Source of the DNA: a bacterium
GTDB taxonomy: Bacteria > CAIJMQ01 > JAADFP01
Assembly (NCBI GenBank): GCA_027021085.1
Contig: JALUVB010000262.1
Location: 1 to 6,208 of the forward strand
Reading direction: 5' to 3'
Length of the DNA stretch: 6,208 nt
This document shows positions 2,946 to 5,771 of the stretch, piece by piece. A program made the translations under genes and the position numbers. Numbering within the stretch: the first letter of the stretch is position 1; the number at the start of each line of letters is the position of its first letter. A model generated the notes under the pieces. That model searched no databases and was not told the origin of the DNA. It saw only the letters and a list, made by a program, of their open reading frames with translations.

Positions 2946-3824
2946 ATGGGGCGTGTAACTTTTCCCACTCATATCATGCTACAAACTACTTCACGTTGTA
3001 ATTCTTCCTGTTCTTTCTGCCCCTATTCTGAAGTGAGCGATAAGTTGTCCCAGGGAGAAATGGAAGAGACAATTTTTTCGAAAATTATAGAGGAAGCAGC
3101 TGCTCAACCCGGAGTAAAAAGAGTAATGCCTTATTTAATGAACGAGCCGTTATGCGATTCACAGATAGCAGAGAAAATCTGCCGTATAAAAGAAAAAGTG
3201 CCTCATGCCTCGGTACATATTTTAACCAATGGAATAAACCTGACAGAGAAATTGGGAGATAGAATTATTAATTCACCCCTTGATTGGATAGGGATTTCTA
3301 TTCATGCGATACGGGAAGATACCTACCGGAGATTTACCGGAAGGGGGGATTTTCGGGATATCCTTTTGAAAATCACGCTTTTCGTGGAGAAGGCGCTGAA
3401 AAAAAGGGGGAAAAATTTTGTAATGATAAATATTACTCATGCCCCGGGTTACTTGACAGAAAAAGAGAAGGAAGAGGCATTAAGTTATTGGGAAAATCTG
3501 GGAGTAGAGAGAATTAAGTATTGCGCTTCTCCTATAAGCAGGGGAGGAAACATTAAATGGTTACCTCCTGTAAAACATAACCGGATTAAGGGGTGTGGCT
3601 CTGTCTGGAGAAACGAGATGGTACATATTTTATTTAACGGGGATGTTGTGCTCTGCTGTATGGATTGGCAAAGAGAGGTTATTGTAGGGAATGTAAGAAA
3701 AAATAGCATAGAAGAGGTCTGGAACTCTCCTTATTACCTGGAAATAGAGGATTATATAGGAGGCAGGATTTCTCCCCCCGAGGATTTTATCTGCCTGAGG
3801 TGCGAAGAGGCTGAGGTTTGGTAG
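2946..3824 (+). CDS. Radical SAM protein with SPASM-like C-terminal cluster domain
   Basis: A 292-residue radical SAM enzyme of unknown substrate. The SAM-cluster motif CNSSCSFC supplies Cys18, Cys22 and Cys25. NEP (66-68) sits at the SAM-contact position usually occupied by GGEP, and TNG (94-96) and GISIH (117-121) fit the TIM-barrel strands. A C-terminal SPASM/twitch-like region has Cys217, Cys237, Cys238, Cys283 and Cys286, together with NGDVVLCC (231-238), GNV (248-250) and EEVW (256-259), typical of auxiliary Fe-S cluster domains. Family members reductively cleave S-adenosylmethionine to start radical chemistry, often on peptides or on enzymes. No short precursor peptide or partner gene is visible beside it, so the substrate cannot be named. 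It is monocistronic: the upstream gene is divergent and 502 bp of repeats follow. It could also act in cofactor or cell-surface metabolism. Confidence 0.9.
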   Translation: MGRVTFPTHIMLQTTSRCNSSCSFCPYSEVSDKLSQGEMEETIFSKIIEEAAAQPGVKRVMPYLMNEPLCDSQIAEKICRIKEKVPHASVHILTNGINLTEKLGDRIINSPLDWIGISIHAIREDTYRRFTGRGDFRDILLKITLFVEKALKKRGKNFVMINITHAPGYLTEKEKEEALSYWENLGVERIKYCASPISRGGNIKWLPPVKHNRIKGCGSVWRNEMVHILFNGDVVLCCMDWQREVIVGNVRKNSIEEVWNSPYYLEIEDYIGGRISPPEDFICLRCEEAEVW

Positions 3825-3901
3825 CCTGCCACGAGATGAATAAGGCTGAGTAAGGCTCTTAAGTTTAAGTTATCCCCCCGGATACCGGTTTGCATCTTGT
3901 C

Positions 3902-3974
3902 CCGATGTCTATCGGTCCCGACGTATGTCGGGGAGTCCTGAGTTACCCAGTTCCCTGTCTCGGCGCATGCCGGG
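3902..3974. repeat. Three tetraloop palindromes of one family
   Basis: Hairpin 1 (3902-3915) has stem CCGAT/ATCGG with loop GTCT. Hairpin 2 (3917-3932) has stem CCCGAC/GTCGGG with loop GTAT. Hairpin 3 (3959-3974) has CTCGGC/GCCGGG with loop GCAT and one T-G wobble. All align to CYCGRY-GYMT-RYCGGG. The two loop-proximal pairs change in a compensatory way between copies (T-A to C-G; A-T to G-C), which points to selection or copying of a foldable unit rather than chance. No T-run follows, so these are not ordinary terminators. Confidence 0.7.
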
Positions 3975-4019
3975 GCATCTATTTCCCCACCTGTGTTTTG
4001 CATTCTGTATCCCCTTTCC

Positions 4020-4054
4020 TCATCTAAAGTCTCAAGTCTATAGTCTAAGGTCTT
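4020..4054. repeat. 7-bp repeat array, five units
   Basis: The units are TCATCTA, AAGTCTC, AAGTCTA, TAGTCTA and AGGTCTT in strict 7-bp phase, consensus NNGTCTA (TAGACNN on the other strand). Only the first two bases vary freely. The array abuts the first REP-like hairpin. Confidence 0.8.
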
Positions 4055-4060
4055 GCCTGG

Positions 4061-4083
4061 ATACCTGCTTTTGCAGGCATGAC
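4061..4083 (-). repeat. REP-like hairpin element, copy A
   Basis: Read on the minus strand this is GTCAT, then an 8-bp stem GCCTGC-type arm with an AAAA loop, then GCAGGTAT. One stem pair is a G-T wobble in this orientation but an A-C mismatch in the other. It matches copy B (4125-4147) at 19 of 23 positions in inverted orientation. A short conserved head plus stem-loop is the layout of bacterial REP sequences. No associated REP transposase is present in the window. Confidence 0.7.
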
Positions 4084-4124
4084 AGGTGAGGAAGATGTTT
4101 TGTATTGTGCGTTTATCCGGCTCC

Positions 4125-4147
4125 GTCATTCCTGCGCAAGCAGGAAT
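4125..4147 (+). repeat. REP-like hairpin element, copy B
   Basis: GTC precedes a perfect 8-bp stem ATTCCTGC/GCAGGAAT closed by GCAA, a GNRA tetraloop. It lies 41 nt from copy A in inverted orientation, so the pair could also form one long cruciform. Similar GTCATTCC-type hairpins recur in many bacterial genomes; whether this one is abundant here cannot be seen from the window. Confidence 0.75.
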
Positions 4148-4164
4148 CTATCCCCCCTTCACTA

Positions 4165-4180
4165 CTAACTACTCGCTACT
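4165..4180. repeat. 16-bp direct repeat, copy 1
   Basis: CTAACTACTCGCTACT matches copy 2 at 4239-4254 at 15 of 16 positions. It sits in a wider ACTA-rich stretch (4161-4190) with partial internal repeats. Confidence 0.65.
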
Positions 4181-4193
4181 GTTCACTATCTCC

Positions 4194-4228
4194 CAGTCTA
4201 ACGTCTATAGTCTATGGTCTAAGGTCTA
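4194..4228. repeat. 7-bp repeat array, five units
   Basis: CAGTCTA, ACGTCTA, TAGTCTA, TGGTCTA and AGGTCTA follow one another with no slip in the 7-bp phase. GTCTA is invariant in all five, and the first two bases differ in every unit. This is the cleanest copy of the family in the window and lies between the two 16-bp repeats. Confidence 0.85.
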
Positions 4229-4238
4229 AAATGTTCCC

Positions 4239-4254
4239 CTAACTACCCGCTACT
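4239..4254. repeat. 16-bp direct repeat, copy 2
   Basis: CTAACTACCCGCTACT is 74 bp downstream of copy 1 with one T-to-C change. A further ACTAAC follows (4252-4257), so the repeat is itself partly periodic. It ends about 25 bp before the promoter of the next gene. Confidence 0.65.
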
Positions 4255-4278
4255 AACTACACAGGCCGTGAAATTTTG

Positions 4279-4287
4279 TGATATAAT
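4279..4287 (+). promoter_or_regulatory. Consensus extended -10 promoter
   Basis: TGATATAAT is a perfect extended -10 (TGn plus TATAAT). No good -35 is found 16-18 bp upstream. Transcription should start near 4294 and give a short leader of about 33 nt before the gene at 4327. It is the best promoter match in the window. Confidence 0.65.
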
Positions 4288-4316: not shown

Positions 4317-4321
4317 GAGGT
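4317..4321 (+). promoter_or_regulatory. Shine-Dalgarno of the repeat-protein gene
   Basis: GAGGT lies 5 nt before the ATG at 4327 and supports that start. Confidence 0.7.
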
Positions 4322-4326
4322 AAAAA

Positions 4327-5133
4327 ATGAGAAAACATTGGTCAAGAGAGGGTATTATAAATTTTATCCTCTACCTGGAGGCAAAAGGATATGACCTTTC
4401 TTCTTCCCATGTGCAGAGAGAACATGGGGACCTTCACAGGGTGGCTTTCAGGTACTTTGGCAACTGGGAGAATGCCATCAGGGCTGCAGGGCTTGACTAC
4501 GAAAAAATAAGAAAGTATAAATCCTGGACAAAGGGAAAAATCCTCAAGGAAATCCGAAAGCTTTACGAAAAGGGAGAAGACCTTTCCTGGAGAAATATTT
4601 CCCTGGGGGAGAATTCTTCTCTCGCGCATGCGGCTATAAAAAAGTATCGCTTTGGCTCCTGGGAGAATGCTCTCAGGGCAGTGGGAATAGACTACAGCAA
4701 GGTACGAAGGTACAAAGAATGGAATAAGGAGAAGATAAAAGCAGAGATATTGCGTCTGTATCGAGAGGGGATACCTGTAAACTCAAAGAGTGTTCAGATG
4801 GTTTACCCTGCACTTTACCATGCTTCCAGGAAAAGGTTTGCTTCCTGGAAAGAGGCTGTTGAATATGCCGGGTTGTATTACGACAAGGTTGCCTTGAGAA
4901 AAGGAAGGAAGCCCGGAGAAATACTGGAAGAAATAAAAAAGATAAAGGAAAGGGGAGAACCTCTTTCTGATACCCACGTGAGAAGAAATTATCCTGCAAT
5001 TCATGCGGGTGCCTGTCGGGCTTTTGGTTGTTGGAGTAAAGCAAGAGAATTGATAGGAGATTTTACCAATTACAGAAAGAAAACTCTTGCTTTTCCGGGG
5101 GAAGATTTTGTGGGTGAAGAAGCCGCTGTTTAA
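4327..5133 (+). CDS. Tandem homing-endonuclease-associated repeat protein, no nuclease domain
   Basis: The 268 residues are almost wholly four tandem repeats of about 60-65 residues: 4-65, 66-130, 131-192 and 193-252. A short acidic tail (253-268) follows. Each repeat has an opening basic/aromatic position (W5, W67, W132, lost as R194 in the last), an amphipathic helix, a turn of the GEDLS type, a second helix, and F-G/A-x-W (44-47, 109-112, 171-174, 233-236) leading to AG-(I/L)-x-Y. This pattern fits the 'homing endonuclease associated repeat' (Pfam HNH_repeat), thought to bind DNA and often fused to HNH nucleases. No HNH, GIY-YIG or LAGLIDADG motif is visible. Lys and Arg are abundant. I infer a DNA-binding role, target unknown. 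It has its own promoter after a repeat-rich gap and overlaps the ribE stop codon by 4 nt. It could be a nuclease remnant or a stand-alone regulator. Confidence 0.82.
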   Translation: MRKHWSREGIINFILYLEAKGYDLSSSHVQREHGDLHRVAFRYFGNWENAIRAAGLDYEKIRKYKSWTKGKILKEIRKLYEKGEDLSWRNISLGENSSLAHAAIKKYRFGSWENALRAVGIDYSKVRRYKEWNKEKIKAEILRLYREGIPVNSKSVQMVYPALYHASRKRFASWKEAVEYAGLYYDKVALRKGRKPGEILEEIKKIKERGEPLSDTHVRRNYPAIHAGACRAFGCWSKARELIGDFTNYRKKTLAFPGEDFVGEEAAV

Positions 5134-5771
5134 GGGGACAAGAAGCCCGCTCTATCAAGAAGTGTGCGAAAATCAGTTTTACCTTTCTTTTCTTCCCACC
5201 ATTTGTGGAATATCTTGACCAGGAAGTCAAATTCCAGGTTTACTTCGTCTCCCACTTTTTTCTTGCTTAGAGTGGTATTGGTGGAGGTATGAGAAATCAG
5301 GTAAGTGTGAAAAAAGTTTTCTTCTACTTCTTGAACGGTGAGGCTTATTCCGTCCACTGCTATCGAACCTTTTTTTATAAGATAACGGGAAAAGGAAGGC
5401 GGGTATGAAATCTTAATACCGAATTCTTTTCCCGCTTCTTTCTCTACTATTTTTCCTTTCCCATCCACATGGCCGGTGATTATGTGTCCTCCCAACCTGC
5501 CAGCCAGGGTTAGGGGCCTCTCCAGGTTCACTTCTTTCCCTGTTTTCAAGGAGGAAAACGTGGTGCTTTTTAGAGTTTCCTTTCCCACTTCTACCTGGAA
5601 GTTCTCGCTGCCTTTTTCTACAACGGTTAAGCATACTCCATCCACAGCAATGCTGTCGCCTGCTTTCATATCTTCCAGCACCCCGCATGCTTCTATACTT
5701 AGAAGCATGCCATCTCTTTTTCTTTGAACTTTTTCTACTTTCCCTATCTCTTCAATTATTCCGGTGAACAT
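5130..5771 (-). CDS. ribE: Riboflavin synthase, alpha chain
   Basis: A 213-residue riboflavin synthase, which dismutates two 6,7-dimethyl-8-ribityllumazine molecules into riboflavin and a pyrimidinedione in the last step of riboflavin biosynthesis. It has the diagnostic N-terminus MFTGIIEEIG and two homologous lumazine-binding halves (about 1-97 and 98-190), each with an (S)IAVDG-(V/I)-(C/S)-LTV segment (40-50 and 136-146). GHIITGHVDG (95-104) opens the second half, and FDFL (181-184) carries the conserved acidic position. The usual length is 200-215 residues. The upstream sequence holds only a weak purine-rich Shine-Dalgarno (AGAGAAAG). The gene lies 43 nt after a TPR gene on the same strand. 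No other rib gene and no FMN riboswitch is visible in that short gap, so it appears separated from the classical rib operon. The symbol ribE follows E. coli-type naming (ribC there historically, ribB in Bacillus). Confidence 0.96.
   Translation of the reverse strand: MFTGIIEEIGKVEKVQRKRDGMLLSIEACGVLEDMKAGDSIAVDGVCLTVVEKGSENFQVEVGKETLKSTTFSSLKTGKEVNLERPLTLAGRLGGHIITGHVDGKGKIVEKEAGKEFGIKISYPPSFSRYLIKKGSIAVDGISLTVQEVEENFFHTYLISHTSTNTTLSKKKVGDEVNLEFDFLVKIFHKWWEEKKGKTDFRTLLDRAGFLSP

Follow-up and report, generated by a model that had tools for sequence, protein, structure and literature searches.

The window analysed here is a whole contig of 6.2 kb (6,208 nucleotides) from a 1.93-Mb draft genome. 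It carries yebC-like, EF-G-like, radical SAM/SPASM, riboflavin synthase-like and TPR genes in addition to the gene under study, a stand-alone array of HNH_repeat units (PF18780). The array gene is located on the forward strand at 4327-5133 and encodes 268 aa with four repeats and without a nuclease domain. It is placed between the radical SAM/SPASM gene (2946-3824, forward strand, assigned with Pfam) and the riboflavin synthase-like gene (5130-5771, reverse strand, with two lumazine-binding domains); the latter is convergent with the array gene, and the stop codons of the two overlap by 4 nt. An ORF check confirmed the reading frame, strand and coordinates given in a preliminary description of this DNA, which had also claimed a good ribosome binding site, no frameshift and a strong promoter. 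By direct reading, an in-frame TAA is present at 4321-4323, 6 nt 5' of the array-gene ATG, and the ATG at 4327 is therefore the only likely start. A ribosome binding site, GAGGT, is found at 4317-4321 on the forward strand, 5 nt 5' of this ATG, and the ORF that follows is intact, so both of these claims stand. The promoter is less certain; the top-scoring site in a promoter scan of the window is a possible sigma-70 promoter on the forward strand at 4258-4287 (TACACA-18-TATAAT, with TG before the -10), which makes the claim plausible, but the window contains 9 promoter sites where 9.6 are expected by chance.

Beside the array gene, approximately 440 bp of the window (3825-4260) is non-coding, and contains the repeated words GTCTAAGGTCT and CTACTAACTAC as well as inverted repeats (GATACCTGCTTTTGCAGGCATGAC / GTCATTCCTGCGCAAGCAGGAATC). 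These are likely to be small dispersed repeats, and similar words are present in the corresponding intergenic region of the congener G001. No integrase or transposase was detected within the window.

The same neighbours are retained in G001 and act as synteny anchors, with 85% amino acid identity for the radical SAM/SPASM protein and 79% for the riboflavin synthase-like protein, but the gap between them is 344 bp, compared to about 1.3 kb in the window. Local alignment showed that 75 bp of this gap correspond to the 3' end of the gene (window 5059-5133, forward strand). The match scores 79, whereas none of 300 shuffles exceeded 30, and it is frameshifted by small indels. The surviving 3' relic suggests that the array gene was most likely already present in the genus ancestor, and that G001 has since lost the greater part of it by deletion. 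The gene is absent from the other five genomes of the window's phylum. Judged by gene content, it is dispensable in this genus and phylum, because it appears to have been lost from G001 and the other five genomes are without it. Mobility of the homing endonuclease kind is not indicated, as the site in G001 is a relic of the gene and not an uninterrupted site.

The window protein has a pI of 9.8 and consists of four repeats of ~62 aa followed by a 15-aa tail. PF18780 was the sole Pfam match (62 bits against a gathering score of 26, E 6.7e-17), and no HNH model matched the protein. An HMM iterated from the four repeats of the protein itself placed the copies at residues 6-59, 68-123, 133-186 and 198-244 (E 2e-20 to 9e-16). 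Combining the HMM with an AlphaFold prediction, repeat 1 was assigned to residues 4-65 (4336-4521, forward strand, as are the others), with its predicted third helix at residues 34-44 (4426-4458); repeat 2 to residues 66-130 (4522-4716), third helix at 97-106 (4615-4644); repeat 3 to residues 131-193 (4717-4905), third helix at 161-170 (4807-4836); and repeat 4, the most diverged, to residues 194-253 (4906-5085), third helix at 223-233 (4993-5025). The family is characterised by tandem copies of about 54 aa that contain an FG-S-W...AAGLDY core, as do the four copies here, which share with PF18780 a W at the start of helix H1, FG-S-W before H4, and AAGLDY. The repeat in the window is of a longer form, W..KI...I..L...G..L followed by DY..IR.YK with a basic linker, unlike the short 'ELGRTP' form, which is found in a haloarchaeal HNH protein and in large arrays on Bacillus plasmids. 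Two of these large arrays, on Bacillus subtilis plasmids (L008:1759-4377 and L011:2122-4596), are 800-900-aa proteins of 14-15 short-type units that are annotated as hypothetical and located near a site-specific integrase gene. Within the window's genome there is no second PF18780 gene, and a single HNH gene (PF01844; C44, 225 aa), which sits on another contig (contig 44) and does not contain the repeat. Searches with PADLOC defence models gave chance-level matches only (E 0.01 or worse), and no match was found in Rfam.

The preliminary description had implied that arrays of this repeat without a nuclease are rare, and this was wrong, as lack of a nuclease is common in the PF18780 family among the genomes sampled. 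The family was found in 28 of 386 sampled genomes; HNH was absent from L005, L013, L018, L019, L022, L030, L033, L034, L035 and L037, which have 2 to 8 repeats, and present in L012, L016, L017 and L021, these calls being made by reading the proteins (with four loci left out) and scanning a subset against Pfam. The nearest relatives of the window protein are nuclease-free at 2, 3, 4 and 8 repeats, and are syntenic within genera. Single-copy genes for nuclease-free arrays of related repeats are present in phyla other than that of the window. In genus g19, from a phylum of three genomes, a single-copy 4-repeat array precedes rpmE in 3/3 species, with NG86 dN/dS values of 0.067, 0.076 and 0.081. 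A profile search found an array in 104 of 397 genomes around G297, mostly one per genome and mostly with three repeats. All 29 that were examined over their full length contain three repeats and no additional domain that could be recognised, as checked by Pfam on three representatives, and in this clade the median dN/dS was 0.03 and the maximum 0.136 over 30 pairs. Strong purifying selection therefore acts on nuclease-free arrays (dN/dS 0.03-0.14), the values coming from the arrays of relatives and not from the window's own copy. All six arrays for which pI was computed are basic (pI 9.4-10.4), and a partial relative was present in one Lentisphaeria genome.

The best match of repeat 2 of the window protein is repeat 2 of the widespread 3-repeat arrays (54%, compared to 41% and 38%), and both have a 2-residue extension before FGSW. 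The homology of the whole arrays is therefore supported; repeats 1 and 3 of the window protein do not discriminate among the repeats of the 3-repeat arrays.

The repeat also occurs with other domains. It is fused to HNH in haloarchaeal and bacterial proteins, and the phage protein L058, which has HNH_3, carries one N-terminal repeat that belongs to the window protein's sub-type. In such HNH homing endonucleases (for example L058 and the Halomicrobium urmianum plasmid protein L010) the catalytic HNH or HNH_3 domain is C-terminal to the repeats, and is lacking in the window protein; the repeat is probably the DNA-binding part of these enzymes, and likewise of the window protein. Two proteins from Bacillota plasmids, L007 (WP_173600033.1) and L009 (WP_021298697.1), have four long-type repeats like the window protein and are annotated as transcriptional regulators, but carry an added Cro/C1-type HTH (HTH_3) that the window protein does not have. 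In L022 the repeat is accompanied by a ROS_MUCR-like segment just under the cut-off, and in L024 it is part of a large protein that starts with recombinase-like sequence. Several phage proteins of ~106 aa (L060:3933-4253, L061:4995-5315, L062:3999-4319, L066 and L068) contain one repeat and a conserved CxxxxC..HHxxxxCxxH, and L059 also belongs with these small phage proteins that combine one repeat with a Cys/His module. The viral scan gave no loci with a single protein as the query and five with an alignment, and tblastn against phages gave no match at E 0.01; an alignment of single repeats was too diverse to be used as a query for the collection scan. The fusions to HNH, HTH, Ros/MucR-like and Cys/His modules point to a DNA-binding module that has been re-used with or without catalysis.

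The AlphaFold prediction of the full array is all alpha (pLDDT 83.2), and its pTM of 0.41 means that the relative placement of the repeats is uncertain. Repeat 1 alone, predicted from a 13-row alignment, is likewise all alpha (pLDDT 88.7), and the predicted helices per repeat are H1 (7-19), H2 (26-32), H3 (34-44), H4 (47-53) and a linker helix (58-66). The helices were compared using one array per genus from 16 genera in five families, at the columns that differ between the repeats of one protein. Mean entropy was 0.30 bits in H3 columns, whereas columns of the first loop and H1 reached 1.53 bits (Mann-Whitney p=0.002), and H3 also differed from all other segments across the 16 genera (p=0.0009). 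As the segments were chosen after the columns had been viewed, the frozen H3 is support and not proof. In g19, a comparison of H1 with H2-H3 gave p=0.049, and in a second genus pair (L034/L038) it ran in the same direction but was not significant (p=0.24). The positions that are repeat-specific and fixed are 26 (Y/W/A), 37 (L/A/I), 38 (R/A/T), 41 (T/T/R), 42 (R/K/R) and 43 (Y/H/R), and in the 3-repeat relatives residues 37, 38, 41 and 42 fall on one face of H3. A segment that differs between repeats and is near-invariant across orthologues is as expected of a recognition helix, and this pattern supports H3 as the candidate.

No match to the protein was found in the PDB by sequence. Foldseek against the PDB gave no significant match for one repeat (the best was the core-binding region of Cre, E 0.69) or for the full array (E 1.3), none of the Foldseek candidates exceeded Z 3.6 in VIA-align, and the one weak viral match in BFVD (E 6.7e-3) superposed poorly.

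The reading that we prefer draws on features that were computed directly, which are the repeats, the absence of a nuclease, the purifying selection seen in relatives, the predicted fold and an H3 that is repeat-specific and frozen. It is that the product of the window gene is probably a working protein that binds nucleic acid, most likely DNA, in a sequence-specific manner and is built only from four tandem helical repeats. Each repeat would fold as H1-H2-H3-H4, with the basic linker helix (DYxxIRxYK) joining it to the next, and H3 with the start of H2 would form the recognition surface. The composite site that the four repeats could read together would span a few tens of base pairs. Lacking a catalytic domain, the array would work by occupying its site, either in transcriptional regulation or in DNA architecture. 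We infer DNA over RNA, regulation over architecture, and the identity of the target. The preliminary suggestion of a modular DNA-binding protein, in which each repeat contacts a short DNA segment, is in agreement with the basic charge, the helical fold, the fusion partners and the frozen H3, whereas the binding itself and the correspondence of one repeat to one segment are what we infer from these.

A TALE repeat is about 33 aa long and has two helices. The arrays described here have ~62 aa and four helices per repeat, and their repeat-specific residues are not hypervariable but fixed among orthologues. By analogy, however, they are like TALE and BurrH/BuD proteins (PMC4089491, PMC4066763) in that helical repeats follow one another in tandem and keep a constant scaffold while certain residues are specific to each repeat, an arrangement that was found in the 3-repeat relatives. 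No homology to TALE or BurrH/BuD was found, and a modular code is proposed here by analogy. It is possible, but on balance doubtful, that these proteins form an undescribed class, encoded on bacterial chromosomes and broadly conserved, in which a repeat of the homing-endonuclease type is on its own a modular DNA reader, with one helix per repeat that could be decoded and re-assorted as in TALE.

The main rival is that the array binds structured RNA (rRNA, SRP RNA or an mRNA leader) and not DNA, the frozen third helices reflecting an invariant RNA target. It ranks first among the rivals on account of a target that seems to be invariant, the recognition face being near-invariant over five families, and of neighbours that include translation or secretion genes, with arrays adjoining rpmE and ffh. 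The weak structural list also includes ribosomal proteins, but these are mixed with Cre and TetR-type regulators and all are insignificant. As the fusion partners are DNA-acting (HTH_3, HNH) and the neighbours differ between families, RNA binding is considered unlikely.

Neighbours also bear on whether the array is the DNA-binding subunit of a split system, with a partner enzyme such as an HNH protein, recombinase or polymerase encoded elsewhere. The first 4 nt of polA lie within a 3-repeat array gene in two congeneric species, the window's genome has its one free HNH gene, and the recombinase-like start of the L024 protein would also fit. However, the neighbours differ by lineage (rpmE, polA, ffh, or radical SAM and riboflavin synthase) and no partner is common to them, and the HNH gene is on a different contig from the array and without the repeat, making this quite improbable.

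Sequence-specific binding by a working protein is also preferred over decay of a homing endonuclease, in which the array would be a leftover repeat region after deletion of HNH. The occurrence of the repeat with HNH in haloarchaeal and bacterial proteins and with HNH_3 in a phage is compatible with such decay, and G001 shows that gene loss is possible. Nevertheless, this explanation is largely refuted by the purifying selection on the nuclease-free relatives, which recur as single-copy, syntenic genes at several repeat numbers, and the window ORF, which has a ribosome binding site of its own, is intact; the preliminary view that the gene is not a decayed nuclease is thus upheld, and decay is very unlikely. 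Least credible is a mobile or newly acquired cargo gene in transit and without a cellular role, for although the gene is missing from most of its phylum, adjoins 440 bp of repetitive non-coding DNA and has relatives on plasmids and viral contigs, the relic in the same place in G001 puts it in the genus ancestor, a large clade retains a chromosomal array under strong constraint, and the window has neither integrase nor transposase.

In the open-access literature searched, PF18780 is mentioned in a single paper, which lists it in a table on repeat modelling (PMC8078820). Neither the phrase 'homing endonuclease associated repeat' nor a paper on nuclease-free arrays was found. The conserved single-copy chromosomal family of nuclease-free arrays therefore seems to be undescribed within the literature searched. 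A repeat named for homing endonucleases is, in the sampled lineages, often nuclease-free and present as a conserved chromosomal protein. The residues that vary between repeats yet are fixed between orthologues are candidate DNA-reading positions, which makes a modular code directly testable. If true, the helical-repeat scaffolds for DNA recognition would gain one more member, and the likely regulators a group that has so far gone unrecognised.

The surroundings of the arrays in other lineages were also examined. In L034:1258-3140 and L038:2-1878, the N-terminal half of the product of the overlapped gene is the 5'-3' exonuclease of DNA polymerase I, and the 4-nt overlap suggests coupled expression. 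In genus g349 (L088, L090, L091, L092, L096, L100 and L106) the 3-repeat array is upstream of ffh (SRP54) in the same direction, and in L035:1051-2075 it lies 15 bp 3' of a response-regulator receiver-like ORF, also in the same direction. No operator common to all lineages was found, the upstream regions showing promoter-like elements within genera only. In g19 (L005 at about 1256-1315, and the equivalents in L025 and L031) a strongly conserved block, TGCTGTTGCTTAAG..CCGGTATTTGTTTGACA followed by AGATGATAATAT, is found upstream of the array. Its TGCTGTTGCTTAAG..CCGGTATTTGTTTGACA part overlaps the array's own promoter while the surrounding upstream DNA has diverged, and each of the three g19 genomes contains a single copy of its 28-bp core. 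The block is a possible operator plus promoter, and it might be guessed that the array regulates itself through it. Eight loci (L088, L090, L091, L092, L096, L097, L100 and L106) have a conserved TTGCAAAA..TGCAA promoter region upstream of the array, and between this promoter and the start codon all eight have a hairpin such as GGCGTTTCC..GGAACGTCGC with a T-rich run after it, which is attenuator-like.
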